From positions 124,001 to 188,000 of the forward strand of contig NZ_LDTZ01000019.1 of the NCBI RefSeq assembly GCF_001186365.1: a stretch of 64,000 bases of DNA, given 5' to 3'. Each line of letters opens with the position of its first letter. Positions within the stretch are counted from its first letter, which is position 1. This stretch comes from Gordonia jacobaea. GTDB lineage: Bacteria > Actinomycetota > Actinomycetes > Mycobacteriales > Mycobacteriaceae. Below the pieces are notes generated by a model. It saw only the letters and a program-made list of their open reading frames with translations, did not search any database and had not been told where the DNA came from. The translations under genes and the position numbers were made by a program. This document shows positions 1,970 to 45,499 of this stretch, piece after piece.

Positions 1970-2121
1970 GGTGGCTCCTTGAGGATCTACGGGTACTCGG
2001 GGGCATAGTCGAATGAGACACCGCCCCGATTGTGTATCACATGCTATGCCGTAGATCACACGAATGCGAGCGCGGGTCGACGGCGCACACCCCGCCTACG
2101 CACAGTCGACCCGGGCGAGCC

Positions 2122-2289
2122 GTCGACTGGGCGCTCGAGCGTGCCGACTGTGCGCCCGAGACCGTCGACTGTGCGCTTAAAACTGCCGACTGGGCGCACG
2201 AGAACCCTGACTGTGCGCTCGAGAGTGTCGACTGGGCGCCCGAGAGTGTCGACTGGGCGCCCGAGAGTGTCGACTGGGCGCTCTAGATG
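2122..2289. repeat. Tandem array of eight 21-bp units (GTCGACTGGGCGC family)
   Basis: Eight imperfect 21-bp units begin at 2122, 2143, 2164, 2185, 2206, 2227, 2248 and 2269; the core is GTCGACTGGGCGC and the units at 2227 and 2248 are identical. The array fills most of the 330-bp gap between fadA6 (stop at 2300) and the aldehyde dehydrogenase start (1969). The rest of the gap holds the aldehyde dehydrogenase ribosome-binding site. The reverse complement of the same core recurs inside fadD3 at 5769-5873. Confidence 0.9.
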
Positions 2290-2299
2290 ATCGACTGGG

Positions 2300-3457: not shown

Positions 3458-3488
3458 GAGAACTCCTGATAGATAACGGTCTTCGCGC

Positions 3489-4319: not shown

Positions 4320-4333
4320 CGTGTCCCAACCTC

Positions 4334-4414
4334 CCGTAGTGATTCCACACTCGTACCTCGTCGTGCTTCATTCATGCTCGCGCCTCGCTGTGCCCTCTTC
4401 ACGCTCGTGCCTCG
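4334..4414. repeat. Three imperfect 27-bp repeats between fadE30 and ipdF
   Basis: Units 4334-4360, 4361-4387 and 4388-4414 each end in CTCG(T/C)(A/G)CCTCG. The last unit runs into the 3' end of fadE30 (stop at 4399). It is a different repeat from the 21-bp family nearby. Confidence 0.6.
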
Positions 4415-5694: not shown

Positions 5695-5706
5695 GATCGC
5701 TAGCAT

Positions 5707-5730
5707 AACCTACCAAGCATTTGTTAGGTT
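5707..5730. promoter_or_regulatory. KstR2-type operator between fadE30 and fadD3
   Basis: The 24-bp palindrome 5707-5730 pairs at 9 of 12 positions (AACCTA ... TAGGTT). Its core ACCAAGCATTTGTT (5712-5725) matches the published KstR2 consensus AnCAAGnnCTTGnT with one change (C to T). Its right end TAGGTT doubles as a plausible -10 element 6 nt before the fadD3 ATG at 5737, so repressor binding would block both divergent promoters. Confidence 0.8.
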
Positions 5731-5736
5731 ATGGCC

Positions 5737-7416
5737 ATGGAGTCGATAGTCACCAACGGCGACGCACAGTCGGCGCGACAGAGCGCCCAGTCGACGGGAC
5801 AGAGCGCCCAGTCGGCGGGACAGAGCGCCCTGTCGGCGGGACAGAGTGCCCGGTCGACGGGAGAGAGCGCCCAGTCGACGCCCGCGGCGCTGATCCGGGC
5901 GGCGCGGACCTGGCCGGCGCAGCAGGCGATCGTCGACCGCCAGTGGAGTACAAGGGGTGCAGGCGTCGAGCTCACGTATTCGGAGCTGCTCGAGTGCGTC
6001 CGTGAGTTCGCCGCGGCGCTTGTCGCATCGGGTTTCGAGGCTGGCGACAGGGTGGCCATCTGGTCGCCCAACAGCTATCACTGGCCGATCGCCGCATTGG
6101 GCATCCAGTACGCGGGCGGGGTGCTGGTCCCCCTCAACACCCGCTACACGGCGACCGAGGCCGTCGACGTGATCGAGAGAGCTCAGGTGTCGGCGGTGGT
6201 GGTGTCGGGCGAGTTCCTCGGCGTCGACCACGCGGCGGAACTGCTTGCCGAGCATCGCGGCTCGCTGCCTGACCTCGTGGTGCGGGTACCGCTCGACGGG
6301 TCGGCGCCAGCACCCGAGGGCAGCGTCGACTGGTCGGACTTCGTCACGCGTGCCACCGACGAGACGCGTGCCGAAGCGGATCGTCGAGCAGATACTGTTG
6401 CGCCAGAAGATATCTCCGACATTCTGTTCACCTCAGGGACCACCGGGAAGTCGAAAGGCGTTCTGGCCGAGCACCAGCAGACCATCGCGGGCGCGCGGGC
6501 GTGGGGAGCCAACGGACTCCTGAGTCCAACCGATCGCTACTTGATGGTGAACCCGTACTTCCACACGTTCGGATACAAGGCGGGCATTCTGCCGTCGATT
6601 CTCTTCGGGACGACGATGATTCCGCTCGCGGTCTACTCCCCCACCGAAGCCATGCGGGTCGTCGAATCAGAGCGTGCGACAGTCTTTCCGGGTGCGCCGA
6701 CCATCTTCCAAACCATCCTCGACGACCCCGCGCGCGCAGCCCACGACCTGTCGTCGCTTCGCCTGGTGGTGACCGGCGCGGCCATCGTGCCGGTGGTGCT
6801 GATCGAGCGTATCCAGCGCGACCTCGGCGTCGACACGGTGATCACCGCCTACGGCCAAACCGAATCCAGCGGCTTCATCACCACGTGCACCCCCGATGAC
6901 GACGACGTCACGGTCGCGACAACGTGCGGCAGAGCCTTCGACGGCATGGAGATCGCGCTGTCGGACCAGGGCGAGGTGCTCACTCGTGGCGCGATGGTCA
7001 TGCGTGGCTACCTCGACGATCCCGCGGCGACCGAAGCGACCATCGACGCCGACGGGTGGTTACACACCGGCGACGTGGGTGTGATCGACGAGCGGGGGAA
7101 TCTCCGGATCACCGACCGGCTCAAGGACATGTTCATCTGTGGAGGGTTCAACGTGTACCCCGCCGAGGTCGAACAGACGCTCGCACGCCTCGACGGAGTC
7201 ACCGAAACCGCTGTGATCGGAGTTCCCGACGACCGACTCGGCGAGGTGGGGCGGGCCTACGTGACGATCCACGACGCTGCCCACCTCACCGAGAACGACG
7301 TACTCTCCTATGCGCGAACACATCTCGCGAACTTCAAGGTTCCCCGATCGGTGGTGTTCGTCGACGCGTTTCCCCGCAACGCGTCGGGCAAGATACTCAA
7401 ACGCGAACTGCGCTGA
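5737..7416 (+). CDS. fadD3: HIP-CoA ligase FadD3 with an extended repetitive N-terminus
   Basis: 559-aa acyl-CoA synthetase that adenylates the steroid HIP acid and transfers it to CoA. Visible: AMP-binding P-loop LFTSGTTGKSKGV, VAIWSPNSYHWP, AYGQTESSG, TGDVGVIDERGNLRITDRLKD-type hinge, CGGFNVYPAEVEQ, and the C-terminal lysine in NASGKILK. Sequence runs such as VPLNTRYTATEA recall M. tuberculosis FadD3. The start at 5737 follows TAGGTT by 6 nt (leaderless); an ATG at 5731 is in frame. Residues about 11-45 are five heptads of the QSAQSTG type encoded by a 21-bp tandem repeat, absent from the mycobacterial enzyme as I know it; no start codon exists between the repeat and the conserved domain. 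Confidence 0.9.
   Translation: MESIVTNGDAQSARQSAQSTGQSAQSAGQSALSAGQSARSTGESAQSTPAALIRAARTWPAQQAIVDRQWSTRGAGVELTYSELLECVREFAAALVASGFEAGDRVAIWSPNSYHWPIAALGIQYAGGVLVPLNTRYTATEAVDVIERAQVSAVVVSGEFLGVDHAAELLAEHRGSLPDLVVRVPLDGSAPAPEGSVDWSDFVTRATDETRAEADRRADTVAPEDISDILFTSGTTGKSKGVLAEHQQTIAGARAWGANGLLSPTDRYLMVNPYFHTFGYKAGILPSILFGTTMIPLAVYSPTEAMRVVESERATVFPGAPTIFQTILDDPARAAHDLSSLRLVVTGAAIVPVVLIERIQRDLGVDTVITAYGQTESSGFITTCTPDDDDVTVATTCGRAFDGMEIALSDQGEVLTRGAMVMRGYLDDPAATEATIDADGWLHTGDVGVIDERGNLRITDRLKDMFICGGFNVYPAEVEQTLARLDGVTETAVIGVPDDRLGEVGRAYVTIHDAAHLTENDVLSYARTHLANFKVPRSVVFVDAFPRNASGKILKRELR
5769..5873 (+). repeat. In-frame 21-bp tandem repeat within fadD3
   Basis: Five 21-bp units begin at 5769, 5790, 5811, 5832 and 5853. 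Their reverse complement contains GTCGACTGGGCGCTC, the core of the array at 2122-2289. Since 21 is a multiple of three, each unit adds one heptapeptide to FadD3. Confidence 0.9.
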
Positions 7417-7428
7417 ACTCCAACTCGT

Positions 7429-7953
7429 TCACGAATCGGACTGCGATGCAGCCCATTCGGCGACGCGCTGGGCGCTCTGCTCTTCGGAGAGATCCTCGAC
7501 GCGAGTCATCACCGACCATCGCACCCCGAACGGATCGAGGATCGACGCGAACCGGTCGCCCGAGACGAAGGTCGAGAGGGGCTCGCGGACCGTCGCGCCA
7601 GCGGCTTCGGCCTTGGCCACCACCTCGTCGGCGCTGGGGCAGTAGAAGCCCAACGAGTAGCACGCGGCAGGCCCGTCGGGCGCGGCGATCAGGCCGTACT
7701 CCTCGTTGGGCTCGCCGAGTTGCAGGTGGCCGGTGCCGAAGTCGAGGTCGGCGTGCACGACCACGCCGCTGAACTCCGTGGCATCGACCAGTCTCGCCCC
7801 GAAGACGCTGGTGTAGAACTCGATTGCCTGCTTCGCATTCGGTACGGCGATGAACGGGGTGAGACTCGTCAGGCCGTGCGGGATGCCGTCGGTGGTGTGG
7901 TCGCCGGTGACGCCGGTCGTCGGCTCGGTGGTGGTGTTCTGCTGTGTTGTCAT
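7429..7953 (-). CDS. VOC (glyoxalase/PhnB-like) family protein
   Basis: 174-aa protein of the vicinal-oxygen-chelate fold: TPFIAVPNAKQAIEFYTSVFGA opens a typical first beta-alpha-beta-beta-beta module, with SILDPFGVRWSV near the end. Family members include metal-dependent lyases, dioxygenases and resistance proteins; no specific reaction can be named. The ATG at 7953 is preferred because TAGCGT lies 7 nt upstream (leaderless -10 spacing); GTG at 7962 is possible. Residues 1-25 are Thr-rich and probably unstructured. It converges on fadD3 with 12 bp between stops and diverges from an AraC-type regulator. Confidence 0.8.
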   Translation of the reverse strand: MTTQQNTTTEPTTGVTGDHTTDGIPHGLTSLTPFIAVPNAKQAIEFYTSVFGARLVDATEFSGVVVHADLDFGTGHLQLGEPNEEYGLIAAPDGPAACYSLGFYCPSADEVVAKAEAAGATVREPLSTFVSGDRFASILDPFGVRWSVMTRVEDLSEEQSAQRVAEWAASQSDS

Positions 7954-8018
7954 GCGTTTCACGCTAGGGATCGTGTGCGGTGCGCGGCTTGTAGATTTGC
8001 GACGACTATCGTGGACGC
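7954..8018. promoter_or_regulatory. Divergent leaderless promoters, VOC gene / AraC gene
   Basis: In 65 bp each gene has a TANNNT hexamer close to its ATG without a Shine-Dalgarno: TAGCGT, 7 nt before the VOC start (minus strand), and TATCGT, 6 nt before the regulator start (plus strand). Confidence 0.5.
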
Positions 8019-8879
8019 ATGCCCGTCAGCGGAGCCGACCACTCCGGCGCCCCAGACACCCGCGCCCCAGACACCCCAGTCACGGACACCGCAGACACCC
8101 GCGGGGTGCTCTACCCCGCTCGCCTGCCCACCTTCGACCGCGTCGGCGCGCCCGACGACCTCTCGTCGATGGTCTCGTGGTTCTGGATACCCCAGTGGAG
8201 CCTTGCGCCCGGACGGACGTCGCGGCAGAACATTCTGCCGTTTCCCGCGTGCAACCTCGTCGTCGAACCTGATGCGGTGCTAATTGTCGGGCCGTCGACT
8301 CAGCGCACACACCGCGATCTGACCGGCTCCGGCTGGGCCGTCGGGGCATTGCTGCGACCCGCGGGCGCTGCCGCGCTCGACGTTTCGCCACGATCTCTGC
8401 GCGACACCGCGCAACCCTTCTGCGCGCCCGATCTGTTCCAATCTATCTCTGCAACAATGACTGTCGATCAACCCGACGTGTCCGATGCCGCGTCACACTT
8501 CGCGTCGTGGCTGCGTGAACACGCGACGCCGCCCCAGGAGTCGGCACTGCTCGCGAACGAGATGCAAGACCTGATCGCAGCGGATCGCAGCATCGTCCGC
8601 GTCGACGACCTCGCACGCGAGATGTCGATGTCGGTGCGCACACTGCAGCGCATCGCCGATCGCCACATCGGTCTCTCCCCATTGGCAGTCATCCGCCGAT
8701 ACCGATTGCAGGAGGCCGCGGAACGGCTGCGCGACGACCCGACGATCACCCTCGCCGACGTCGCCGCCGACCTCGCATACACCGATCAGGCGCACTTCTC
8801 CGCCGACTTCCGGCAGACCCTCGGCATGCCTCCAGGCGAATACCGCCGCGCCGTGGCCGAATCCGGTACGGACTCATGA
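8019..8879 (+). CDS. AraC-family transcriptional regulator
   Basis: 286 aa. A C-terminal AraC-type double helix-turn-helix spans about residues 185-280 (SMSVRTLQRIADRHIGLSPLAVIRRYRLQ-type first helix pair, then LADVAADLAYTDQAHFSADFRQTLGMPPGEYRR). The N-terminal part (WFWIPQW, FPACNLVVEP) resembles the uncharacterised sensor domain often paired with such regulators. Residues 8-28 are a low-complexity run of APDT/VTDT. It probably controls the divergent VOC gene or the kinase gene, which overlaps its end by 4 bp (ATGA). Confidence 0.85.
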   Translation: MPVSGADHSGAPDTRAPDTPVTDTADTRGVLYPARLPTFDRVGAPDDLSSMVSWFWIPQWSLAPGRTSRQNILPFPACNLVVEPDAVLIVGPSTQRTHRDLTGSGWAVGALLRPAGAAALDVSPRSLRDTAQPFCAPDLFQSISATMTVDQPDVSDAASHFASWLREHATPPQESALLANEMQDLIAADRSIVRVDDLAREMSMSVRTLQRIADRHIGLSPLAVIRRYRLQEAAERLRDDPTITLADVAADLAYTDQAHFSADFRQTLGMPPGEYRRAVAESGTDS

Positions 8880-10393
8880 ACGACACGGCACGAGCCGAGG
8901 ACCTGCTGGCCCAGGTCGGCGCCCTCGACCCTGACTCCCCGACCAGAAGCATCGTCACGCACGGCGCGGTGATCGTGCTCAACGGTCATCGCGCGTGGAA
9001 GCTCAAACGACCGGTTCGGTTGCGCTACTTCGACTTCAGTACGCCGGAGCGGCGTCGAGCAGCGCTTGACGCCGAACTCCGGCTCAATCGACGCTTCGCT
9101 CCCGGTCTCTATATCGCGGTCCACGCGATCCGACGCGCCCCAGACGGTTCGCTCTCGTTCGACGGCGCGGGAGAGATCGTCGACCACGTCCTGGAGATGA
9201 CGCGCTTCGACGACGACGCACTGATGGTCAACTACGCACATCCGGGTGGCCTCGACGACGACCTGCTGCAGCGACTCGCGATGCGCGTCGTCGAACTACA
9301 TCAGGGATCTGAGATCAGTGCGGATTCCCATGGTGCGCAACGATTGCAGGAGGTCGTCGACGGAAACCTCGCGAGCATGGCGGTGTTCCCGGAGATCATC
9401 GAACCCGTTGTGGCACAAAACCTCACCGACCGAATCACGGCACTCATCACAGAAAGTCGTGACCTCCTCGACGCTCGAGCACGCGGCGGACGCGTTCGCC
9501 ACTGTCACGGCGACCTGCATCTCGGGAACGTCGCGATCATCGACGGCGAGCCGATTCCGTTCGACTGCTTGGAGTTCGACGCGGAGCTTGCCACGACCGA
9601 CGTCCTCTACGATCTCGCGTTCCTCGTGATGGACCTGTGGGCGCGCGGGCTACGACACGAAGCCAACGTCGTCGCCAACACCTACTTCGATCATGCGACA
9701 TTCGATGGTTCTATCGACGACGAGGAGGCATTCCGCCTGCTGCCGGTACTGCTCGCGGTACGTGCCACCGTGCGCGCACACGTCGCGGCAGCCGAGCACG
9801 ACGTCGAACGCGCACACGAATACCTCGCGCTTGCACTGGGTTTCACCGACTTCTCGCTCCCGCAACTTGTCGCGATTGGCGGCGGTTCCGGTACCGGGAA
9901 GTCGACGATAGCGCGGGCGGTCGGAGGCAGTCTCGACCCCGCTCCGGGCGCCCGCATCCTCCGCACCGACGTACTGCGCAAACGTCTTGCGGGAGTAGGT
10001 ATCGCGGACAGGCTCCCGCGGTCGGCCTACACCGACGCCGCGCGGGCAGCGGTGTACACCGAGCTGTTCCGGCTCGCCGAAGCAGACCTGCGCGGCGGAA
10101 TGAGCGTCATCGCCGACGCCGTGTTCGGCCGAAGAAGTCAGTCCTCGGCAATAGCCGACGCAGCCGAGCGCGCGGGCGTCGACTTCACCGGAATCTGGCT
10201 GGAACTACCTGAGGCCGAGCGCATTTCACGTATCGAACATCGCGGACTCGACGCCTCGGACGCCGACGCGACTGTCGCACGCAGGCAGAGTGAGACGCTC
10301 GAACTGCCCGACGAGCGCTGGCGGCGCGTCGAGGCGTCGGGCGGCGTCGAATCCGTGGTCGCCGCGAGCGGGCTGGGTGCTGATCGCGGCTGA
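8876..10393 (+). CDS. Bifunctional aminoglycoside-phosphotransferase-like / P-loop kinase protein
   Basis: 505 aa with two kinase modules. The N-terminal half looks like the aminoglycoside/choline phosphotransferase fold (VKLKRPVR-type lysine region, HCHGDLHLGNV catalytic loop near residue 205, PFDCLEFD metal site). The C-terminal third starts with a Walker A loop GGGSGTGKST (about residue 340) and resembles gluconate/shikimate-type small-molecule kinases. The arrangement matches mycobacterial Rv2004c-like proteins, whose substrate is unknown. Its ATG overlaps the AraC gene stop (ATGA), indicating co-translation, and it converges on lysS with 17 bp between. Confidence 0.85.
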   Translation: MNDTARAEDLLAQVGALDPDSPTRSIVTHGAVIVLNGHRAWKLKRPVRLRYFDFSTPERRRAALDAELRLNRRFAPGLYIAVHAIRRAPDGSLSFDGAGEIVDHVLEMTRFDDDALMVNYAHPGGLDDDLLQRLAMRVVELHQGSEISADSHGAQRLQEVVDGNLASMAVFPEIIEPVVAQNLTDRITALITESRDLLDARARGGRVRHCHGDLHLGNVAIIDGEPIPFDCLEFDAELATTDVLYDLAFLVMDLWARGLRHEANVVANTYFDHATFDGSIDDEEAFRLLPVLLAVRATVRAHVAAAEHDVERAHEYLALALGFTDFSLPQLVAIGGGSGTGKSTIARAVGGSLDPAPGARILRTDVLRKRLAGVGIADRLPRSAYTDAARAAVYTELFRLAEADLRGGMSVIADAVFGRRSQSSAIADAAERAGVDFTGIWLELPEAERISRIEHRGLDASDADATVARRQSETLELPDERWRRVEASGGVESVVAASGLGADRG

Positions 10394-10410
10394 GGACGGC
10401 GTCTGGCAGC

Positions 10411-11949
10411 TCAGTCGCGCAGCGGCTTGACCAGCGGGAACAGGATTGTTTCGCGGATGCCCAGGCCGGTGAGCGCCATCAGCAGACGGTCGATGCCCAT
10501 GCCGGTGCCCGCCGTCGGGGGCATGCCGTACTCCATCGCGGCGAGGAACTCCTCGTCGAGTCGCATGGCCTCGTCGTCGCCGGCGGCAGCGAGGCGTGCC
10601 TGGTCGACGAAGCGCTCACGCTGGATGACCGGGTCGACGAGCTCGGAGTAGCCGGTGGCCAGCTCGAAGCCGCGGACGTAAAGGTCCCACTTCTCGACGA
10701 CGCCCGGCACGCTGCGGTGCGCGCGCACCAGCGGCGACGTCTCGACGGGGAAATCGCGCACGAACACGGGTTGCGAGAGTTTCTCGCCGACCATGTGCTC
10801 CCACAGTTCCTCGACGAGCTTCCCGTGACCGTAACCCTTGTCCTTGGGCACCTCGAGGCCGACGCGGGCGGCGATGGCGAGCAGCTCGTCGACGCTGGTC
10901 CCGGGATGCTCCGGGCCGCCGTCGGGAACGATCTCCTGGCCGAGCGCCTCCGAGAGCGACGGGTACATCTCCAACGAGGTCCACTCGCCGGAGAGGTCGT
11001 AGGTGGTGCCGTCCGGCATTTCCGGCGTGAGCGTGCCGATCGCGCCGAGTGCCACCTCCTGGATGATCTCGCGGGTCATCGTCGCGGCGTCGTCGTAGGT
11101 GCCGTAGGCCTGGTAGGTCTCGAGCATCGCGAATTCGGGCGAATGGGTGGAGTCGGCGCCCTCGTTGCGGAAGTTGCGGTTGATCTCGAAGACGCGCTCG
11201 ATTCCGCCGACCACGGCCCGCTTGAGGAACAGTTCCGGCGCGATACGCAGGTAGAGGTCGATGTCGAAGGCGTTGGAATGGGTCACGAACGGCCGTGCCG
11301 CCGCGCCGCCGTGCAGCGTCTGCAGCATCGGGGTCTCGACCTCGAGGAATCCTCGGGTGACGAGTGCCTTGCGCAGCTCGGCGATCACCGAGATACGGGT
11401 CCGCGCAGTCTCACGTGCTTCCGGACGCATGATGAGGTCGACGTAGCGCTGACGGACGCGCGTCTCCTCGTTCATCTCCTTGTGCGCAACCGGCAACGGG
11501 CGCAACGACTTCGACGCCATCGCCCAGTCGTCGGCCATCACCGACAGTTCGCCGGTACGCGAGCTGATGACCTCACCGTGGACGTAGACGATGTCGCCGA
11601 GGTCGACGTCGGACTTCCATCGCGCGAGCGACTCCTCGCCGACCCCGTTGAAGCTGATCATCGCCTGGAGCTGGGTACCGTCGCCCTCCTGCAGCGTGGC
11701 GAAGCACAGCTTGCCCTTGTTGCGCAGGAAGATCACACGTCCGGCGACGCCGACGTTCGTGCCCGTCTCGGTGCCCGCTTCGAGGTCGGGGTGTGCCTCG
11801 CGGATCTCGGCGAGGCTGTGCGTACGGCCGATCGACACCGGATAGGCCTCGCGTCCCTCGTCGAGGATGCGGTCGCGCTTCTCCCGACGGATACGCAGTT
11901 GCTCGGGCGTCTGGTCGTCGTTTTCGGTGGTCGAGGGGTGATCACTCAC
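10411..11949 (-). CDS. lysS: Lysyl-tRNA synthetase, class II
   Basis: 512-aa cytoplasmic enzyme that charges tRNA-Lys. An N-terminal OB-fold anticodon-binding domain (about 60-170: [14 protein letters not shown]) precedes the class II core: motif 2 [18 protein letters not shown] and motif 3 [15 protein letters not shown]; the C-terminus ends [11 protein letters not shown] as usual. GTG start at 11949 with only a weak GGGA upstream. In M. tuberculosis lysS lies close to coaX; here about 10 kb of catabolic genes separate them. Confidence 0.95.
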
Positions 11950-12012
11950 TCCCGAACCCTATCGGATCGGCTTTTCCCGCCGGTGCGGGACCGACGCCGC
12001 CCGGCGCTGCGG

Positions 12013-12927
12013 TCACACACCGGTCGGCGCCAACACGATGTCGAATCTAGTGCGCGACCAGCTACCGGTCACCACCCTGCCGTCGGGTGTCGGCGTCCCA
12101 GCGGGCTGTTCGACGAAGTCGTGCACGAGGGAGTCTTTCACTCCGAACACCGAATCAGAGCCCAGCAGCCGATCGCCGCGAACAAAGATGTGCGTCACGA
12201 GCGTGCGGCATCCCTCGTGCGACACCATGAAGTGCAGGTGAGATGCCCGCATCGGGGACCGACCGACCGCGGCGAGCATCTCACCGACCGGACCGTCGGC
12301 CGGGATCGGATACGGAGTGGGTGTCACGCCCCAGAACCGGTACGACCCATCCGCGCCGGTGAAGAGATGCGCGCGACCGGCGACCCGATCATCGTCGTAC
12401 TGCACGTCGTAGAAGCCGTCCTCGTCGGCCTCCCATACCTCCACCCGCGCGCCGTCGAGCGCGTTCCCGAGGTGATCGCGAACGGTTCCCTCGACCCAGC
12501 ACGGCTGACCCGACGCACCGGCCGCGATGTCGCCGCCGTCGGGTATCCGCGGCGAGTCGTCGACGAAGAACGGCCCGAACACCGTCGCCTCGGTCGCGTC
12601 GCCGTAGGCGGCGTTGTTCACGGCGATCGTTTGCATCGACGCGCCCAATACGTCGGAGAGCAGGATGAACTCCTGACGACGGTCATCGGTGATGTGTCCG
12701 GCGCGGGTGAGGAAGTCGATGGCGGTGCTCCATTCGGCCTCGGTGAGGCGGGTTTCCCGGATGAAAGCGTGCACGTGTTCGACAATGCCGATCATCAACT
12801 CCCGCAGCCTCGGATCGGCACAGTGTTCGAAGGAGGCCACGACGTCGGCGATGAGTTGCGCTTCGCGTCGCTGCTGCTCGTCGACCGAGTCGACGGCACG
12901 GTCCACAGTGGAGTCGGTGGTGCTCAT
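12013..12927 (-). CDS. Hydroxyquinol 1,2-dioxygenase (intradiol)
   Basis: 304-aa non-haem Fe(III) intradiol dioxygenase that opens hydroxyquinol to maleylacetate. The dimerisation helices ([31 protein letters not shown]) are followed by the catalytic beta-sandwich; likely iron ligands are the tyrosines in [15 protein letters not shown]-flanking segments and the histidines in [10 protein letters not shown] and [18 protein letters not shown] is typical of the hydroxyquinol rather than the catechol branch. The ATG at 12927 overlaps the maleylacetate reductase stop (ATGA) with AAAGGA upstream; an ATG at 12948 is less likely. Last gene of the catabolic operon. Confidence 0.88.
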
Positions 12928-13979
12928 GTGATCGGTGTTCCTTTCCATGCGCGGCGAAGCAGCGCTGCGAGGTTGACTTCGGTCAGCTCGACCGGGTTGC
13001 CGGCGGGCATGACGCCGATGATGGCGAGCGCAGCACGTTCGATTCCGGCTTCGGGCATACCGAGTTCGGCCAGTGAGCGCGGCGCATCCAAGCGCTGGTA
13101 GAGGTCGGCAAGTCCGTCATTGGCTGTGGACGAACCCAGCGCTCTGGAGATGCGGGTATTCGCGGCATCGTCGGCGGGTGCGTTGAGCGCCACGACGTGC
13201 GGCAGCACGACGGCATGGGTCTGCGCGTGGGGCAGGTTGAACATGCCGCCCAAGACGTGGCAGACCTTGTGGTGCAGCCCGGAACCCGCCGATGCGAACG
13301 CGACCGCGGCCAGATATGCGCCGTACAGGGTGCGCTCCCGTCCGGAGATTGCGCCGGGATCGTCGACGATCTCCCCCAGTCCATACGCCAGTGACCGGAT
13401 GGCCTCCTCGGCCAGCGCCTGATCGATCGGATCCGACCGCGGTGCCCACATCGAATCCACCCCGTGGGCCAGTGCATTCAGCCCGCTGGCCACCGCCATG
13501 TTTGACGGCATCGACGCGGTCAACGTCGCGTCGTAGATCACCGCGCGCGGCAGCACCCTCGGGTCGACGCCGGTGCTCTTCGTAGCGTTCTGCGTCATCC
13601 CCCACATATCGGTGGCCTCCGATCCGGCGAAGGAGGTAGGCACCGCGATGATCGGCAGCCCGGTGGTCAGCGCCACCGCTTTGGCCAGCCCGATTGCCGA
13701 CCCGCCGCCGACACTCATCACCGCATCGACATCGGCGATCTTGGCGCGCTCTCGTGCGGTGTCGGCGAGTTCGACGGGCACGTGCATGGTGACCTCATGC
13801 TGCCGAATCGCGACCGGCAGGCCCTCGGCGAGCCTGTCAGCGTGCCCGCCGGATGAGCCGATCAGCATCAACCGTCGGACCCCGAGCCGTTCCACTTCGT
13901 CTGACACCGCACGGGCTGCATCGTCGGGAGCGAACACCACTCGCTGAGGATTGCTGACGTGCACGAAACTCATCGTCAT
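12924..13979 (-). CDS. Maleylacetate reductase
   Basis: 351-aa iron-type alcohol dehydrogenase family enzyme reducing maleylacetate to 3-oxoadipate with NAD(P)H. Nucleotide-binding [13 protein letters not shown] near residue 95, [19 protein letters not shown], and the metal-ligand region HKVCHVLGG ... [12 protein letters not shown]. Its ATG at 13979 overlaps the upstream hydroxylase stop (ATGA); the open frame up to 14309 is antisense noise over that gene. Immediately followed by the hydroxyquinol dioxygenase, the usual pairing in resorcinol/hydroxyquinol operons (TsdCD in Rhodococcus, NCgl1112-1113 in Corynebacterium). Confidence 0.9.
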
Positions 13980-15766
13980 GTGCGGCACAGCAATTGGGTC
14001 ATGGCAGCACGCAGCGCGGCCTCCGGATCGGTCGGCAGGTCTTGTGACCGCCAGGCCACATGTTTGTCCGGCCGGATCAGCAGCGCACCGGCCTCGCCGA
14101 CTTCGCGCAGCCTGGCCCAGTCGAAGTAGAGGTCGGTCACCTCGCGTCCGGGCCCGATCACGATGGCCTCCAACGGGATTCCCATGGTCGCCGACACCTT
14201 CGCGGCAGCCTCCTCCCACTGCTCGCCTGCCACGCCGGTGATCAGGGTCCAGCGACGGTAGGGTGCAAGATCCATCGTGGCGAGCTTGGTGTTCTGATCT
14301 CCGACCCAAGCGTGCGGCAGGTGGGCACCAGGGCTGGTCGACATGACGTGATAAAGATCCGGATCGAGGCTCGGTGGTGGCGACGTTCCATCGGAGATGA
14401 CCGCGTCGGACTGATAGAACTGACCGAGTTCCACTCCGTGAGCGTTGAACTCGTAGTTCTTGGTCTCCATGGCGTCGACCAGTGCGGCGCGCATCGCGGC
14501 ACCTTCTGGGGTGTTCTCCTTGCGACGGTTCATGGCCGCAGCCATCTCTGCCGGGTCGGTCAGTCCCTCGATATCGAGTGCAGTGAAGATGTCTGCGAAC
14601 TCTCGCGCCGACCGATTCGCCCGTGTGACAATGCGTTTGGCGACCGGCGCCCGTTCAGCGGTGTAGGTGTCGAGCAGTCCCTGCCCGGCCTGACCGGACA
14701 GCACGGCGGCGATCTTCCACACCAGGTTGTAGGAGTCCTGGATGCTGGTGTTGGACCCCAGTCCGTTGCTGGGCGGATGGCGGTGCACGGCGTCGCCCAC
14801 GCAGAACACCCGTCCGCGCTGCAAATTCGTCGCATACATTTCGTTGACGCCCCAGAGGCTGTAGCCGGTGATCTCCGGTTCCAGATCCGGCATGCCGAGT
14901 AGATCGCGGACGATCTGGGTGGCGGCGGCATCGTCGAGAACCGGTGGCGGCTGGTTGATGTCGTAGCCCCACACGATCAGCCACTCGTTCCACGGCCGGA
15001 CCATCCGGACCAGTCCGGTGCCGATGCCACCGACGTTGGAGCCGGGCTGGATGACCCAGTAGAGGACACTCGGGCGGTGGTCGACGAGGGCGGCGATGTC
15101 GGCGGTGAAGGTGATGTTCATCGACCCGGCGATGTCCATCGCCCCCTCGAACGGCAGGTCGATGTCGGCGGCGATCTGCGAGCGGGCGCCGTCGGCCCCG
15201 ATCAAGTACTTGGCGCGGATGCGGTAACGGTGGGCGGTGAGTCGGTCGAGGACTTCGACGGTCACCCCGTCGTCGTCCTGGGTGTGCGAGAGGTACTCGG
15301 TGGAGAACCTGGCCTGCGTACCGCGAATCGTGGCGTTGCGCACCAGAATCGGCTCGAGGTAGGTCTGCGGGATATCCACCGTCAGGCATGGCGAAGCGAG
15401 CTGGTAGTCGGCCTCCCGGTCGGGACGGGTGCCCCAGGTGCGGATTCTGCCGATCTCCTCGCCGGCGATTGATGTGCAAAACACCGTGTCGCCGACGAGG
15501 TCGTGCGCGGTGGCGTCGACCAATACCTGGTCCTCGATGCCCAGGTCTCGAAAGACCTCCATCGCACGCTGATTGGTGATGTGCGCACGCGGCGTGTTGG
15601 CCGTCCAGCGGTACTTGGTGATCATGATGTTGTCGATGCCGAGTTCGCTGAGCATCAGCGACGCGGCCGCCCCGGACGGTCCGGATCCGACGACGAGCAC
15701 ATCGGTTTCGACCACCTGGCCGGTGGGTATCTCGGTCTGGGCCATGCCGTCGTCGAATGCAGGCAT
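13976..15766 (-). CDS. FAD-dependent phenol/resorcinol hydroxylase (TfdB type)
   Basis: 596-aa class A flavoprotein monooxygenase. Motifs: FAD-binding VVGSGPSGAAASLMLSELG at residue 20, NTPRAHITNQRAMEV, the DG motif LIGADGARS, and GDAVHRHPPSNGLGSNT, followed by a C-terminal thioredoxin-like domain. PSVLYWVIQPGS and VRMVRPWNEWL recall 2,4-dichlorophenol hydroxylase TfdB and corynebacterial resorcinol hydroxylase. With the two genes behind it, conversion of resorcinol (or another dihydroxybenzene) to hydroxyquinol is the most likely role. ATG at 15766 with AAAGGTGG upstream. A 110-bp gap containing a hairpin separates it from the upstream dehydrogenase gene, so it may head its own transcript. 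Confidence 0.85.
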   Translation of the reverse strand: MPAFDDGMAQTEIPTGQVVETDVLVVGSGPSGAAASLMLSELGIDNIMITKYRWTANTPRAHITNQRAMEVFRDLGIEDQVLVDATAHDLVGDTVFCTSIAGEEIGRIRTWGTRPDREADYQLASPCLTVDIPQTYLEPILVRNATIRGTQARFSTEYLSHTQDDDGVTVEVLDRLTAHRYRIRAKYLIGADGARSQIAADIDLPFEGAMDIAGSMNITFTADIAALVDHRPSVLYWVIQPGSNVGGIGTGLVRMVRPWNEWLIVWGYDINQPPPVLDDAAATQIVRDLLGMPDLEPEITGYSLWGVNEMYATNLQRGRVFCVGDAVHRHPPSNGLGSNTSIQDSYNLVWKIAAVLSGQAGQGLLDTYTAERAPVAKRIVTRANRSAREFADIFTALDIEGLTDPAEMAAAMNRRKENTPEGAAMRAALVDAMETKNYEFNAHGVELGQFYQSDAVISDGTSPPPSLDPDLYHVMSTSPGAHLPHAWVGDQNTKLATMDLAPYRRWTLITGVAGEQWEEAAAKVSATMGIPLEAIVIGPGREVTDLYFDWARLREVGEAGALLIRPDKHVAWRSQDLPTDPEAALRAAMTQLLCRT

Positions 15767-15782
15767 TGGTGGCCACCTTTCC

Positions 15783-15803
15783 ACGACCGGTCCGGCCGGT
15801 CGT
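15783..15803 (-). other. Hairpin between upper and lower parts of the catabolic operon
   Basis: ACGACCGG (15783-15790) and CCGGTCGT (15796-15803) pair perfectly around 5 nt, in the 110-bp gap upstream of the hydroxylase gene. It could be a partial terminator, a processing site or an mRNA stabiliser. Confidence 0.45.
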
Positions 15804-15876
15804 CTACGTTGTTTGTCGCTCGTGTCCCGAGAGGCACTGGCGAGAGATGAGTTGTGGTGAGCTAAGACGAAATCCG

Positions 15877-17025
15877 TCAGAACACGATGACCGGCTTGAT
15901 GACTCGGCCGCTCTTGGCCGCGGCGATCGCATCGTTGATCGCGTCCATATCGAAGGTGGTGACCAGCCGTTCCACCGGCAGATCACCGTTGCGCCAATGG
16001 TCGACGAGTTCGGGTATCACCTGGTTCGCGTCGCAGTCGCCGATCGCCACACCGGAGATGGAGATATTGCGGGCGATGAACATGGTGACATCGGTCGTGA
16101 ACGCGGTGCCCGGTGGCGGCGCGCCGATCACACCGCAGTGTCCGCCGGTGATCGTCGCCGCCATCGCGACGTCGAGAACTCCTGCCGCACCGCTGGTTTC
16201 GAGCGTCTGGTCGGCGCCGCCACCGGTGATGCGCTGAATCTCTTCGACGGAATCCGATGCCGACGGATCGATGACGTCGGTGGCACCGAGCTCGAGGGCC
16301 AGCTCGCGCCGCGAGGCGACCGGGTCCACACCGATCACCCGGTCGATGCCACGAATCCGGGCCGCCATCACGGCTCCGAGACCGACGGTGCCCAAGCCGA
16401 ATACCGCCAGGCTGTCCATCGGGCGGGTGGTCTGGGGATGAAGGACCGGCCCGGCGCCGGTGATGATGCCGCATCCCAGCGGCGCCGCGACCTCTGCCGG
16501 CACGTCATCGGCGACGACGATCGCAGTCGAGCGGGGCGCAAGAATCGTTGCAGCAAAGGAGGATTGACCGAACCAGTGCGAGTGGATCGGGCTGCCGTCC
16601 AGAGAGAACGCCGTTGTGCCGTCGGGTCGACCGCCTGCGATGTTCATCCCGAAGGCGTTGGCGCACGCCCAGTACCGACCGCGATCGCAGCTTCGGCAAT
16701 GTCCGCAGTGATCAATGGTCAGCACCACCCGATCACCGATACGCACATCGTCGACTCCCTCACCCACCGCTGTGACGGATCCGGTTCCCTCATGGCCGAG
16801 GACGATCGGGAACTGTGCCGGAAACTGTCCGTCGCGCGCGCTGAGATCGGTGTGGCAGATACCGCTCGCGGCCAGGTCGATCCGGAGTTCGCCTGCGGCC
16901 GGTGCGCCGATCTCCACCTCCTCGACTTTCAATGGCGCGCCGATGGTGGCGGCGACCGCGGCGCGCACCGTGCGTGATGGGCCTGCCGATTCGTCGGCGG
17001 CGGGGTCGGTGACGGAAACACTCAT
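15877..17025 (-). CDS. Zinc alcohol dehydrogenase, aryl-alcohol type
   Basis: 382-aa medium-chain dehydrogenase. Catalytic zinc site: Cys in GICHTDL, HE in LGHEGTG, and the Cys of PLGCGIITGAG; structural zinc cysteines in DHCGHCRSCDRGRYWACAN; Rossmann turn GLGTVGLGAV. It resembles benzyl/aryl-alcohol dehydrogenases. Start ATG overlaps the flavin reductase stop (ATGA). Within the cluster it may oxidise or reduce a side-chain alcohol of the aromatic substrate; the compound is unknown. Confidence 0.85.
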   Translation of the reverse strand: MSVSVTDPAADESAGPSRTVRAAVAATIGAPLKVEEVEIGAPAAGELRIDLAASGICHTDLSARDGQFPAQFPIVLGHEGTGSVTAVGEGVDDVRIGDRVVLTIDHCGHCRSCDRGRYWACANAFGMNIAGGRPDGTTAFSLDGSPIHSHWFGQSSFAATILAPRSTAIVVADDVPAEVAAPLGCGIITGAGPVLHPQTTRPMDSLAVFGLGTVGLGAVMAARIRGIDRVIGVDPVASRRELALELGATDVIDPSASDSVEEIQRITGGGADQTLETSGAAGVLDVAMAATITGGHCGVIGAPPPGTAFTTDVTMFIARNISISGVAIGDCDANQVIPELVDHWRNGDLPVERLVTTFDMDAINDAIAAAKSGRVIKPVIVF

Positions 17026-17579
17026 GACGACTCCTGTTTTGGTGTGGCGCTGTGTGATGCGGCGCTCCAGGCGCCGAAAGCGCTGCGGAAGAACAGCAAC
17101 GGCTCGGCGTCGGGATGGCCGTCAAGGGCAACTACTCGTCCGACGGATAGGAAGTGGTCACCGACGATGTGCTCGGCGTACAGCTCGCACTCGATGTGGG
17201 CGACCGCGTCGTCGAGCAGCGGTGCGCCGGTTTCACCGAGATGCCATGGCGCAAGCGCGAATCGGTCGATGCCGCGGCGTGCGAAACCCAGCGCGGTCGC
17301 CGATTGCGTGCTGGACAGCACGTTCACCGCGAACGACCCGCTATCCCGGATCGCAGGATAGGTCGACGACGTGGCCGCAGGCGCGAAAGCCACCAGCGGT
17401 GGGTCCAGCGACATGCTCATGAATGACTGGCAGGTCATGCCGACGTTCTCCCCGCTCCTGGAAGCGGTGATCACCACGACGCCGGAACAGAATCGCCCGA
17501 GAACGTCGCGGAACAGATCCGAATCGAACGGGTCGCGAGTTGGGCGAGCGGCACCTGCCCTGATGTCGAGCGCGGTCAT
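17022..17579 (-). CDS. Flavin reductase, partner of the HsaA-like monooxygenase
   Basis: 185-aa FMN-binding split-barrel reductase (HpaC/HsaB/DszD type): FRDVLGRFCSGVVVITA, GMTCQSFMSMSLDPPLVAF, SGSFAVNVLS and the late DHFLSVGRVVAL histidine-containing segment. It supplies reduced FMN or FAD to an oxygenase using NAD(P)H. Start and stop both overlap neighbours by 4 bp (ATGA), so it is translated together with the two dehydrogenases, two genes downstream of the oxygenase component. Confidence 0.88.
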   Translation of the reverse strand: MTALDIRAGAARPTRDPFDSDLFRDVLGRFCSGVVVITASRSGENVGMTCQSFMSMSLDPPLVAFAPAATSSTYPAIRDSGSFAVNVLSSTQSATALGFARRGIDRFALAPWHLGETGAPLLDDAVAHIECELYAEHIVGDHFLSVGRVVALDGHPDAEPLLFFRSAFGAWSAASHSATPKQESS

Positions 17580-18694
17580 CGTCGCGGCTCCACAACAGCT
17601 GCGACGACCTCGCAGTCGGCCACCTGATTGAGGACGCCGTCGATGGCGTCGAGGCCCACAGTGGTCGAAACCATTGAATCGAAGTCCAATTCACCGCGTT
17701 CGAGAAGCCCCGTCCACACCGGGATGTCACGCAACAGGTTGGTCTGTCCCCACTGGCAGCCGTGAATCTGTTTGCCGTTCATCGCTGCGTCGAACGCGCT
17801 GATCGGCAGTGTCGCAGTGAGGAAGTCCTTGGTGACGCTGGCGAGGACGACGTGACCCGTCGGGCGCGTGATCGCCATGGCGGTACCCATCGCGGTCGCC
17901 TCACCCGAGGCCTCGAAAGCGAACTCGACGCCGCGCTTGTCGCCGAAGAGAGCCGGATAGCTGCCGGCCACCTCTTTGACCTTCTCGACGAGGTCGGGAT
18001 CATTGGCGTCGAAGGTGTGTGTGGCGCCGAACTTTTCGGCAATTTCCCGACGATGCGCCAGCGGATCGATGGCGATGATCGTTTCTGCTCCGAGAACACG
18101 CGCGCTCTGCAGGTATGCGAGCCCCGTCATGCCACACCCGACGACCGCGACGCTGGCTCCCGCGGTGACCGGCGCGACGTTGAACGCTCCACCTACGCCA
18201 CCTGCACCGCCGTCGGCCAGGACGGCCAGCGCCTGATGGGATAGACCTGTGGTCAGCGGCACCACCTGGATTTCCCTGGTCAGCATCTGTTCGGCGTAGG
18301 ACCCGAGGTAGGAGTGCGCGACCGTGGAACCCGTTCTGGCGAGCTCGATCTCGGGCCCGAGGAAGGTCAGCTCGCCGCACATGTCCGGCCGATCGCGTAG
18401 ACATGCGTAGCAGACACCGCACCACGGATTGGCCGATGCGAGCACGGTGTCGCCCACGCGTACCCGACTGACGTCGGAGCCCACGGCAGACACGATGCCC
18501 ACACCCCCGTGACCGGGGATCTGCGGGATGTGTGCGCCGGGCGGGAACGGGGGATTGTCGAAGGCGATGACGTCGGTGATGCAGGCGACCACCGCGGTGG
18601 TGTCGACAACCACTTCGTGCGGGCCGGGAGCGGGCAGGTTCACATCGTCGACCTCGACGTGGCGGCCGTTTCCGTGCCAGAGTGCCGCGCGCAT
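17576..18694 (-). CDS. Zinc-type alcohol dehydrogenase, second paralogue
   Basis: 372-aa medium-chain dehydrogenase. IPGHGGVGIVSAVG replaces the canonical GHE with GHG at the catalytic-zinc glutamate position; cysteines in NPWCGVCYACLRDRPDMC fit the structural zinc site; Rossmann motif GCGMTGLAYLQSA. The first catalytic cysteine is in VACITDV. It is distinct from the neighbouring dehydrogenase. Start ATG shares one base with the monooxygenase stop (TGATG), and its stop overlaps the flavin reductase start. A step on the same unknown aromatic substrate is inferred from context. Confidence 0.82.
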   Translation of the reverse strand: MRAALWHGNGRHVEVDDVNLPAPGPHEVVVDTTAVVACITDVIAFDNPPFPPGAHIPQIPGHGGVGIVSAVGSDVSRVRVGDTVLASANPWCGVCYACLRDRPDMCGELTFLGPEIELARTGSTVAHSYLGSYAEQMLTREIQVVPLTTGLSHQALAVLADGGAGGVGGAFNVAPVTAGASVAVVGCGMTGLAYLQSARVLGAETIIAIDPLAHRREIAEKFGATHTFDANDPDLVEKVKEVAGSYPALFGDKRGVEFAFEASGEATAMGTAMAITRPTGHVVLASVTKDFLTATLPISAFDAAMNGKQIHGCQWGQTNLLRDIPVWTGLLERGELDFDSMVSTTVGLDAIDGVLNQVADCEVVAAVVEPRR

Positions 18695-19941
18695 CAGGCG
18701 TTCGCCTCTGCGAGTGCGGCAACGGCGTATCCGCTGGCGGTGGCTTCGCGAATGGTCTGCGCGACGTGGCTGCGGTACATGGTGAAGTCTCGCCAATAAC
18801 GTTGTGTGCGTGTGCCATCCTTCATCGCGCTGGACCCGGTCACACGAGCCATCAGATCCATCGCTTCGGTGAGCACCTTGCCAGCCTGGATGGCCAGCGA
18901 GACCAAGCGCTGATTCTCGGCAATGGTGACCGGCCTGCCGGTCGCCGCCGACTCGGCGCACAGTTGGGTGTAGGAGGCGGTGACGCTGAGCAGGCAGGCT
19001 TCAGCCTGATCGATCAGGGTGGTTGCCTCGCCGTACCACTGCCGATAGAACGAGTCCTCTGCGCGGACAGCCATCGGTGGCCACATCGTCTTCTTCACCG
19101 GCATCGTCGCCGCGAACTCGTCGAACATCGCCTTGGTCATTCCCAATGCGACGGCGAGCAATTCGGCGAAGAAGAACGGCTGGATCGGCCCGATGTACAT
19201 CGGATTGCCATACAGCTCAAGCCCATAGGTCTGATCCGGACGAATGGCGTTGATATCGATGTCGAGGACGTATCCATGGTCGACGACGCAGTGGTCGACC
19301 TTGACCGAGTTGGAACCGCTGCCCTTGAGGCCGATCAACGTGCCCCAGTCGTCGAGGATCTCGTACTTGTCGCGCGGTACCAGCGCCAGCCCCGGATGGG
19401 GACGACCGCCGTCGGCGGGCATGATCATCACCGCATTGAAAACGTGTGTCGAGTAGGGCACGCCTGAGCAGTAGTCCCAGAGCCCGTTGAGTTCCCAACC
19501 ACCGTCCACCGGCGTCGCGGTCACCGAGGGCACCACGCGGGAGGGCGCGATGAAATGTCCGTCGGCGCCCATGGCCTCGGCTTGAACGTCGGCATCGAAC
19601 AGCCCGGCAAGGTTGACCACGTGGGCCGAGCCCAGGCACAAACACCATGCTGTCGAAGGACATCCGCGACCGATTTCGACGACGACGCGCAGGAAGTCTT
19701 GAATCGACAGTTCGTAGCCGCCCAGAGCAGCCGGCTGCAGCATCCGGTAAAAGCCGAGCCGCCTGAACTCCTCGTGCAGCTCCGGCGAGTAGCGGGTGCG
19801 TCGCTCGGTTTCGGCTTGCTCCTCGCGCAGCCTGTCCCTCAACCCACGCGCACGAGCCAAGAAGTCGTCAACGGTCAGTCCTGGCTCGGGGACCGGGATC
19901 TGCTTCCGCACAGACGTTTTGGTGGAATCAATGACGGTCAT
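18694..19941 (-). CDS. Group D flavin-dependent monooxygenase (HsaA-like)
   Basis: 415-aa protein with the acyl-CoA dehydrogenase fold but oxygenase-type motifs: FYRMLQPAALGGYE, GCPSTAWCLCLGSAH, LNGLWDYCSGVPYSTH, IGLKGSGSNSVKVD, and a C-terminal RYWRDFTMYRSHVAQ. These are features of two-component oxygenases such as HsaA, not of dehydrogenases. It would hydroxylate a phenolic ring using flavin reduced by the nearby reductase. The ATG at 19941 follows GAGGAG at good spacing. First gene of the operon, 187 bp downstream of the AraC-type regulator gene. Substrate not deducible. Confidence 0.85.
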   Translation of the reverse strand: MTVIDSTKTSVRKQIPVPEPGLTVDDFLARARGLRDRLREEQAETERRTRYSPELHEEFRRLGFYRMLQPAALGGYELSIQDFLRVVVEIGRGCPSTAWCLCLGSAHVVNLAGLFDADVQAEAMGADGHFIAPSRVVPSVTATPVDGGWELNGLWDYCSGVPYSTHVFNAVMIMPADGGRPHPGLALVPRDKYEILDDWGTLIGLKGSGSNSVKVDHCVVDHGYVLDIDINAIRPDQTYGLELYGNPMYIGPIQPFFFAELLAVALGMTKAMFDEFAATMPVKKTMWPPMAVRAEDSFYRQWYGEATTLIDQAEACLLSVTASYTQLCAESAATGRPVTIAENQRLVSLAIQAGKVLTEAMDLMARVTGSSAMKDGTRTQRYWRDFTMYRSHVAQTIREATASGYAVAALAEANA

Positions 19942-20011
19942 CGACACTCCTCTGATTGAGACCCACGGCCGACACCAGTGACGGTGGCGGCTCGCTTCTG
20001 TTCTCGAGTGT

Positions 20012-20048
20012 GATGCGGCGCACATCGGTAATGAAAGGAGATGCGGCG
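20012..20048 (-). promoter_or_regulatory. 9-bp direct repeat upstream of the monooxygenase operon
   Basis: GATGCGGCG occurs at 20012-20020 and 20040-20048, 28 bp apart, in the 187-bp gap between the regulator and operon. AraC-family activators bind direct repeats of this spacing class, so these may be its half-sites; they could also be chance in GC-rich DNA. Confidence 0.35.
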
Positions 20049-20128
20049 AGGTTGGCCGAAATCAGCCGCGATGTCTGATCACCGGAGGGCGTTGACCGAA
20101 TTCCAAAGCCGTTCCACGACTTGCTCGT

Positions 20129-21103
20129 TCACCCATCGCCCCGAAGTGCACGGCGAAGTGCGTTGTCGCGCAATATGTCGTCGGGCCTGTTCCCGAACCT
20201 GGCGTGGTACGTGCGCGAGAAGTTTCCGACCGAGCCGAAACCGCAGCGAACCGCGATCTGTGCCACGGTCAAACCGTCGTCGGCTTGGAGCAACATCCCC
20301 CTGGAGCGCAGAAGACGTTGCTCACGAACATATTTGGGCACACTGGTGTGCGCCTCGGCGAAGATCCGGGACAGGTGCCGTTCGCTGATCCCGACAGCAC
20401 GTGCCACATGTGGTGCGGTCAGACCTGGATCGGACAGATTGGCCGCGATGTAGTCACGTGCTCGGTCAAAATGATTGTGGACGGCTGGCTCCGGTCGCGG
20501 AGAGAGGACAGCGGAGATGAGCTCCACCAGGTCGTCCTCCGCGAGCGACTCGGCCGCCTGATCGCTCGTCGCGGCAATCAATCGCGTTCTCAAAGCGGCA
20601 CCGGCGAAATTGTTGCCGATGTCGATGACCCGCGGAGTGAATCCGATTGGCACACCCGTCGATCGTTGCAGAAGTGGCGTCGGAACGACGACGGCCAGAG
20701 CTTCGGTGTCCTCGCCGAAGCCACTGACGAACGGGCGCTCGAGGCTCGTGACCAACAACCGATCGACCGTGGCGAAGTGGGTTTGGCCGTCGGTGAACAG
20801 GAAAGTATGGCCTTTGAGGGTGATCGTGATCAGCGTGGCGGGCACACCATCGTCGGATACAAATCTGCCCGACATCTCGACGATGTGGGACCCCATTCGC
20901 AACGACATGACACGCAGCGAACCGACCTCGGCCACCGTTCCCGTTGCATCGAGTCGCTCGTCACCGAGGACTTTGGCGTGCAGCGGCAGAAAGGTACTGC
21001 TGGTGAACTCCTCCCACCGGGCCGCGGATTCGACACCGAGCCCATCGGTGGTGAAGGCGATCGGATCAGGAGCCGACGGCCGCCCCGACGCCCCACGTGC
21101 CAT
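20129..21103 (-). CDS. AraC-family regulator of the hydroxyquinol-type catabolic operon
   Basis: 324 aa. The C-terminal AraC DNA-binding domain covers about residues 225-315 (DYIAANLSDPGLTAPHVARAVGISERHLSRIFAE-type first HTH; VAQIAVRCGFGSVGNFSRTYHARFGNRPDD second). The N-terminal 200 residues resemble the AraC-binding-like domain of NphR/Feaf-type activators of aromatic catabolism. ATG at 21103 with GGAG upstream; an open frame to 21169 has no support. Same strand as, and directly upstream of, the operon it most likely activates. Confidence 0.85.
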   Translation of the reverse strand: MARGASGRPSAPDPIAFTTDGLGVESAARWEEFTSSTFLPLHAKVLGDERLDATGTVAEVGSLRVMSLRMGSHIVEMSGRFVSDDGVPATLITITLKGHTFLFTDGQTHFATVDRLLVTSLERPFVSGFGEDTEALAVVVPTPLLQRSTGVPIGFTPRVIDIGNNFAGAALRTRLIAATSDQAAESLAEDDLVELISAVLSPRPEPAVHNHFDRARDYIAANLSDPGLTAPHVARAVGISERHLSRIFAEAHTSVPKYVREQRLLRSRGMLLQADDGLTVAQIAVRCGFGSVGNFSRTYHARFGNRPDDILRDNALRRALRGDG

Positions 21104-21266
21104 GTCTACTCCCACGTCCTCCAGTGCTCGCGGCGAAAGACGCGATGAAACCGCACTGCCACGCCGCACCTGGCCATGTTATCCAGGTCACACGATGGTT
21201 CGGCAAGTGGCGTGAAAGCATGACCGAAATGACGCCGGATGGCCGATTCCCACAGGAGACGGACCC

Positions 21267-23195: not shown

Positions 23196-23252
23196 GCTGT
23201 CATTCCTCTGTGTTGGCGTGCATTGCGGGCGGGCTGCAGAGTCTGTGGGGGC

Positions 23253-23456
23253 GTGATCTCGACAAGCTCGATCAACGGGGAACGGCGCTCGATCAGCGAG
23301 GGGGTGATCTCGACAAGCTCGATCAGCGGGGAGCGGCGCTCGATCAGCGAGGGAGTGATCTCGACAAGCTCGATCAGCGGGGAACGGCGCTCGATCAGCG
23401 AGGGCGTGATCTCGACAAGCTCGATCAACGGGGAACGGCGCTCGATCAGCGAGGGG
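23253..23456. repeat. Four tandem 51-bp repeats between panC and panD
   Basis: Units begin at 23253, 23304, 23355 and 23406, each containing GATCTCGACAAGCTCGATCA and a second GCTCGATCAGCG. Differences between units are a few substitutions. The array occupies the middle of the 366-bp panC-panD gap; the remainder holds the panD upstream region and one further repeat (23477-23518). No spacers are present. Related sequence recurs at 36704, 45368 and 49982. Confidence 0.92.
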
Positions 23457-45367: not shown

Positions 45368-45499
45368 GGCCGCTGATCGAGCTTGCTACCCGCTCATCGA
45401 GCTTGCTACCGGCTGATCGAGCCCACCCGCCGACCGAGCCCACCCCGCTGATCGAGCTTGTCGAGATCACCACCCGCCGATCGAGCTTGTCGAGATCAC
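45368..45499. repeat. Dispersed CTGATCGAGCTTGTCGAGATC repeat, block 1 copy
   Basis: Several imperfect units of GCTGATCGAGCTTG, some extended with TCGAGATCACC, follow the PAP2 stop. The gap 45362-45717 (356 bp) holds this repeat, the gene remnant described next, and then the upstream region of the second PhoD gene. Confidence 0.85.

Follow-up and report, generated by a model that had tools for sequence, protein, structure and literature searches.

A resorcinol-type operon of Gordonia jacobaea preceded by a rare oxygenase-dehydrogenase module: a candidate route for a phenolic compound into hydroxyquinol

The window analysed here is a stretch of 64,000 nucleotides from Gordonia jacobaea, to which the coordinates refer unless another locus is named. 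By ORF and domain search, eight open genes were found on its minus strand, from an AraC gene to a hydroxyquinol 1,2-dioxygenase gene; all are open where the first-pass annotation, made from the sequence alone, had called them, and carry the expected domains. The features of the block are the following:

20129..21169, minus strand: AraC-family regulator (AraC_binding_2 and HTH_18), with an alternative ATG start at 21103
19942..20128, minus strand: intergenic region ahead of the oxygenase gene, with a tentative candidate shared operator at 20033-20063
18694..19941, minus strand: oxygenase component of a predicted HsaA-like group-D two-component flavin monooxygenase, 415 aa (Acyl-CoA_dh_N/_2)
17576..18694, minus strand: ADH1, divergent Zn-dependent dehydrogenase, 372 aa (ADH_N/ADH_zinc_N; Cys/His/Asp catalytic zinc site)
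17022..17579, minus strand: HsaB/HpaC-type flavin reductase, 185 aa (Flavin_Reduct)
15877..17025, minus strand: ADH2, benzyl-alcohol-dehydrogenase-like Zn-dependent dehydrogenase, 382 aa (ADH_N/ADH_zinc_N)
15767..15876, minus strand: 110-bp gap separating front module and core, with a second candidate operator copy at 15844-15874
13976..15766, minus strand: single-component FAD phenol hydroxylase (HbpA/PheA type), probable resorcinol 4-hydroxylase, 596 aa (FAD_binding_3 and Rng_hyd_C)
12924..13979, minus strand: maleylacetate reductase (MAR), 351 aa (Fe-ADH)
12013..12927, minus strand: hydroxyquinol 1,2-dioxygenase, 304 aa (Dioxygenase_N/C; 469 bits to 1TMX)

In the sequence, a 1-bp overlap (TGATG) joins the oxygenase and ADH1 genes, and 4-bp ATGA overlaps are found at the ADH1/reductase, reductase/ADH2, hydroxylase/MAR and MAR/dioxygenase junctions. 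The ADH2 gene (ending at 15877) and the hydroxylase gene (starting at 15766) do not overlap and are 110 bp apart, so that two coupled blocks are present, rather than one. The tight coupling reported earlier is therefore real inside each block, but does not extend across the gap, which parts the four-gene module from the core. The eight genes are flanked by lysS (10411-11949) and by a rhodanese-like gene (21267 to about 21716), the latter followed by coaX and panD. Decarboxylase and transporter genes, already reported missing, are absent between lysS and the rhodanese gene by domain search of the block, and promoter and terminator scans gave no signal above chance. GC content is about the window average, slightly low for the AraC and oxygenase genes only, and composition therefore says little about the origin of the block. 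Between panD and panC, a 51-bp tandem array is found (23249-23455), with a unit of the CTCGATCAGCG type, which recurs in other arrays of the window (36735-36798, 45370-45500 and 49978-50050).

The last three genes cluster the activities expected of a resorcinol/hydroxyquinol operon, namely a flavin hydroxylase, a MAR and a hydroxyquinol 1,2-dioxygenase. The dioxygenase matches the hydroxyquinol 1,2-dioxygenase 1TMX far above catechol dioxygenases, and the MAR scores 227-356 bits against solved maleylacetate reductases and their relatives. The hydroxylase had been called "TfdB-type", which proves a loose label, 2-hydroxybiphenyl 3-monooxygenase being nearer (596 bits) than 2,4-dichlorophenol hydroxylase (460 bits). 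It is 63.5% identical to a monooxygenase adjoining catA on pPHE20; since such an enzyme is among its near relatives, phenol is also a possible substrate. By analogy with known operons, the substrate of the core is most likely resorcinol or a related diphenol, processed via hydroxyquinol to 3-oxoadipate. Genes for the subsequent steps are on contig C2 of the same genome, where pcaI is found above cut-off at 431461 and an intradiol dioxygenase gene at 435900, together with a thiolase gene at 429450, which scores below the strict pcaF cut-off.

Besides three further Gordonia, plasmids of Pseudarthrobacter, Citricoccus, Kocuria and Streptomyces carry the same core, usually accompanied by an AraC gene; of 20 sampled order genomes that have the hydroxylase, most contain it as well. 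This recurrence agrees with the earlier description of the three genes as a standard set and, by gene content, the core is an ordinary actinobacterial operon of the resorcinol/hydroxyquinol type. The oxygenase-ADH-reductase-ADH module was found ahead of the core in none of the plasmids, order genomes and three further Gordonia examined. The AraC-FMO-MAR-HQD locus on pACHL02 of Pseudarthrobacter chlorophenolicus A6, for example, has the order of the Gordonia core and the AraC gene in front (hydroxylase 68.8% and dioxygenase 67.6% identical), but lacks the four genes between the AraC and hydroxylase genes.

Among known systems, the rol operon and the tsd genes likewise keep an FAD hydroxylase, a MAR and a hydroxyquinol 1,2-dioxygenase together. 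The tsd genes of R. jostii RHA1 include an IclR regulator, a decarboxylase and a transporter, and we know of no oxygenase-ADH-reductase-ADH module in either rol or tsd. The rol operon of C. glutamicum is a characterised resorcinol operon (PMC7764795, PMC3086911), controlled by the TetR-type RolR (PMC3086911), whereas the Gordonia block has an AraC-type regulator. The block also differs from gamma-resorcylate operons (tsd/gra) in having neither a resorcylate decarboxylase nor a dedicated transporter.

The oxygenase heading the four-gene module matches acyl-CoA dehydrogenase domains in Pfam, and the first-pass annotation, which described an HsaA-like two-component oxygenase with its reductase, had itself named a CoA dehydrogenase as the finding that would speak against it. 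By sequence, the nearest solved relatives are the flavin monooxygenases HsaA, HPAH C2, Rv3094c and XiaF. A structure model (19 homologues, mean pLDDT 86.6) gave fold Z-scores of 40-43 with these four proteins, and of at most about 35 with acyl-CoA dehydrogenases. His107, Ser134, Ser159 and His392 align with His120, Ser146, Ser171 and His396 of HPAH C2; Ser159 and His392, the Ser and His for flavin-monooxygenase chemistry, are invariant across the 19-sequence family alignment, and a partner reductase is encoded two genes downstream. With an acyl-CoA-dehydrogenase-like fold, active-site Ser and His and a reductase in the operon, the protein is, as judged from sequence and model, a group-D two-component flavin monooxygenase, and a misannotated acyl-CoA dehydrogenase is very improbable.

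In HPAH C2, residues of this site serve phenol binding and flavin-hydroperoxide chemistry, and Arg263 binds the substrate carboxylate. Arg263 is replaced by Gln254 in the Gordonia oxygenase, which does not qualify as an arylacetate hydroxylase of the HPAH C2 kind; we infer a phenol hydroxylase, acting on a substrate without an arylacetate-type acid. The steroid enzyme HsaA was considered and rejected as an identity: the pair resembles HsaAB, the steroid 3-HSA hydroxylase, in fold and two-component arrangement, but the oxygenase reaches only 163 bits against the HsaA equivalog (NCBIfam cut-off 450), and the true HsaA of the same genome (650 bits) is encoded elsewhere, on contig C2.

The flavin reductase is HsaB/HpaC-like by profile and sequence search. 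ADH2 scores 262 bits against the benzyl alcohol dehydrogenase 1F8F, with the Cys/His/Cys zinc ligands aligned and intact; by both similarity and ligands, it is a predicted aryl-alcohol dehydrogenase. ADH1 is 32% identical to ADH2 and keeps the structural-zinc cysteines, while at its catalytic zinc Cys/His/Asp replaces Cys/His/Cys. An Asp after the second Rossmann strand is a sign of NAD preference; both dehydrogenases have it, and NAD is therefore their likely cofactor. Models for NDMA-dependent alcohol dehydrogenase and mycothiol-dependent formaldehyde dehydrogenase are their best or near-best matches, far below cut-offs.

The oxygenase was searched for in 59 Gordonia, 299 genomes of the order, 395 genomes of the class, plasmids and a collection of 84,980 species. 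Only two of the 59 Gordonia carry a close orthologue, this genome and G. aichiensis (96%), and the same two alone have the four-gene module. Apart from the G. aichiensis orthologue, no relative above 43% was found in the order and class genomes. Gordonia aichiensis NBRC 108223 (96%) was also the only close relative in the 84,980-species collection, which was searched by exact short peptide patterns, so that only close relatives could surface. For ADH1, plasmids and 396 phylum genomes were searched; the 395 other genomes of the phylum gave no match at 1e-100. The full gene order, for which a search had been proposed, was likewise found elsewhere only in G. aichiensis. No described operon with this order was met in the literature searched (hydroxyquinol, resorcinol), key resorcinol-operon papers lying outside its coverage. 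The core is of a known operon type; what appears new, on these comparisons, is the module ahead of it, found elsewhere only in G. aichiensis.

The G. aichiensis block lies at the same site and is collinear, with 87-88% DNA identity, which argues against a chance arrangement. In that draft genome a frameshift near 13865 divides the ADH2 homologue (L043 12962-14105), which may reflect a sequencing error, a decaying gene or a dispensable ADH2. All 15 other Gordonia examined have an uninterrupted rhodanese-lysS junction; either the eight genes entered together or they were lost repeatedly, joint entry being simpler. With the same block at the same site in G. aichiensis and the site empty elsewhere, the block was most likely acquired horizontally, as a unit. 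Its edges show no clear flanking repeats and no mobile genes.

The region upstream of the oxygenase gene and the 110-bp gap have a 31-nt stretch in common (20033-20063 and 15844-15874), in which 22 of 31 bases match, a value reached by one in 1000 shuffled pairs of both regions. In G. aichiensis the copy ahead of the oxygenase gene is well conserved and that in the gap only in part, and the best ungapped match there is no better than chance. The stretch is tentatively regarded as a candidate AraC operator, no more; AraC genes adjoin the core operon in other genomes too.

Taken together, the extra genes probably let two closely related Gordonia feed a phenolic compound into a resorcinol-type route. 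The preferred reading, to which we assign a probability of about 0.6, is that of an acquired eight-gene block under one AraC-type regulator, whose upper part would turn an uncharged phenol bearing an alcohol group into a substrate of the lower, hydroxyquinol part. In the upper part, the flavin reductase would provide reduced flavin, the HsaA-like oxygenase would hydroxylate the ring, and the two NAD-linked zinc dehydrogenases would oxidise alcohols on a side chain or on a leaving group. In the lower part, a diphenol (most likely resorcinol, possibly hydroquinone) would be converted to hydroxyquinol by the FAD hydroxylase; ring cleavage would yield maleylacetate, whose reduction would give 3-oxoadipate for a beta-ketoadipate pathway with its genes elsewhere in the genome. 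Sequence and comparison establish the gene identities, the modular structure, the rarity of the block and its position at a site that is empty in other Gordonia. Each reaction is the one expected from the family of the enzyme, while substrate, order of the upper steps and manner of side-chain loss are speculative. The pathway put forward in the first-pass annotation, with oxidation of the side chain preceding hydroxylation of the ring, is plausible as a claim, its substrate and reaction order being speculative.

To our knowledge, only a few peripheral routes lead into hydroxyquinol, most of them described for nitro- and chlorophenols or resorcylate. A rare module travelling with the core would indicate a substrate class not known to enter by this route, for example hydroxybenzyl or alkoxy phenols, and would add a new phenol hydroxylase and two dehydrogenases to the enzymes available for biocatalysis; its value hinges on identifying the substrate.

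As it stands, the upper route lacks a step, since the operon contains no aldehyde dehydrogenase, hydrolase or decarboxylase by which an oxidised side chain could be taken off. The simplest guess is that one of the two hydroxylases removes it by ipso-hydroxylation. The more specific proposal, that the module strips an oxidised carbon side chain from a phenol by an undescribed route, with the zinc dehydrogenases converting alcohol to carbonyl, a group-D ipso-hydroxylation following and the diphenol passing on to hydroxyquinol, seems rather unlikely. As alternatives to side-chain oxidation ahead of ring hydroxylation, action of the dehydrogenases on a leaving group, or of the oxygenase first, could equally fit. 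The oxygenase could, for instance, be an ipso- or para-hydroxylase expelling an alkoxy, hydroxymethyl or acyl group, with the dehydrogenases oxidising the released alcohol or aldehyde. This would account for the absence of ring-side-chain enzymes and is in line with the sub-threshold matches of ADH1 and ADH2 to the NDMA- and mycothiol-dependent models; HcdA is an example of a flavin hydroxylase with ipso chemistry (PMC6222606), and hydroxylation at the para position is documented for a group-D relative (PMC12442392). Still, the best alignment of ADH2 is with a close homologue, the aryl-alcohol enzyme benzyl alcohol dehydrogenase, and ipso chemistry in this oxygenase subfamily is without direct evidence, which leaves such an expulsion doubtful.

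A different possibility is that the module serves a separate pathway, lies beside the resorcinol core by chance, and sends no products into hydroxyquinol. The 110-bp gap, the occurrence of the core alone in other genomes and the presence of related oxygenases in unrelated clusters are in its favour. Strand and order, however, are the same in two species, the module was never found without the core, and other Gordonia clusters join such an oxygenase and ADHs with a MAR-like gene; a chance neighbourhood is distinctly improbable. The eight-gene block acting as one route into hydroxyquinol is preferred, with several findings weighing against it: the 110-bp gap, the missing step in the upper route, the weakness of the shared operator in G. 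aichiensis and the split ADH2 homologue there. In addition, oxygenase homologues of about 40% identity occur in biosynthetic clusters, so that family membership does not settle the reaction.

The other Gordonia clusters (L039, G. aichiensis C78:26001-42000, 1532-12142; L040, 3436-14357) contain genes for hydantoinase A/B, an HsaA-like oxygenase, a GntR regulator, a zinc ADH, a flavin reductase, a RibB-type DHBP synthase, a MAR-like Fe-ADH (50%) and a second zinc ADH; the hydantoinase A gene of L039 is split into two frames. They resemble the block in that oxygenase, reductase and two zinc ADHs occur together with a MAR homologue (50%), so that a tie of such modules to maleylacetate is not unique to it, but hydroxyquinol dioxygenase and FAD hydroxylase were not found in them and their module proteins are only 31-37% identical. 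A comparable pair is IppA1A2 of Rhodococcus sp. D-6, in which an HsaA-like group-D oxygenase and a separate flavin reductase belong to a phenol catabolic cluster (PMC12442392). IppA1, 32% identical to the Gordonia oxygenase, para-hydroxylates 2-isopropylphenol and is the precedent for a catabolic role of such an oxygenase; that cluster differs in that extradiol cleavage of a hydroquinone follows, a RibB gene lies alongside and zinc dehydrogenases are not listed (PMC12442392).

The neighbourhoods of oxygenase homologues at about 40% identity, which are NRPS/HpaB, transporter or unrelated clusters, gave no clue to the substrate. In three of these loci (L053, L146 and L148) the homologue lies near HpaB-type hydroxylases, and in L053 it belongs to a cluster that also has NRPS genes and a gene for a tyrosine 2,3-aminomutase. 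In another family of the order (L018, 7516-10490), an FAD hydroxylase gene (52%) directly precedes that of an HsaA-like oxygenase (36%), with CoA-transferase and LigB-type dioxygenase genes upstream of the pair. An oxygenase-reductase pair (about 40% each) adjoins LysR regulators and an RPE65-type oxygenase in L145 (8030-13341).
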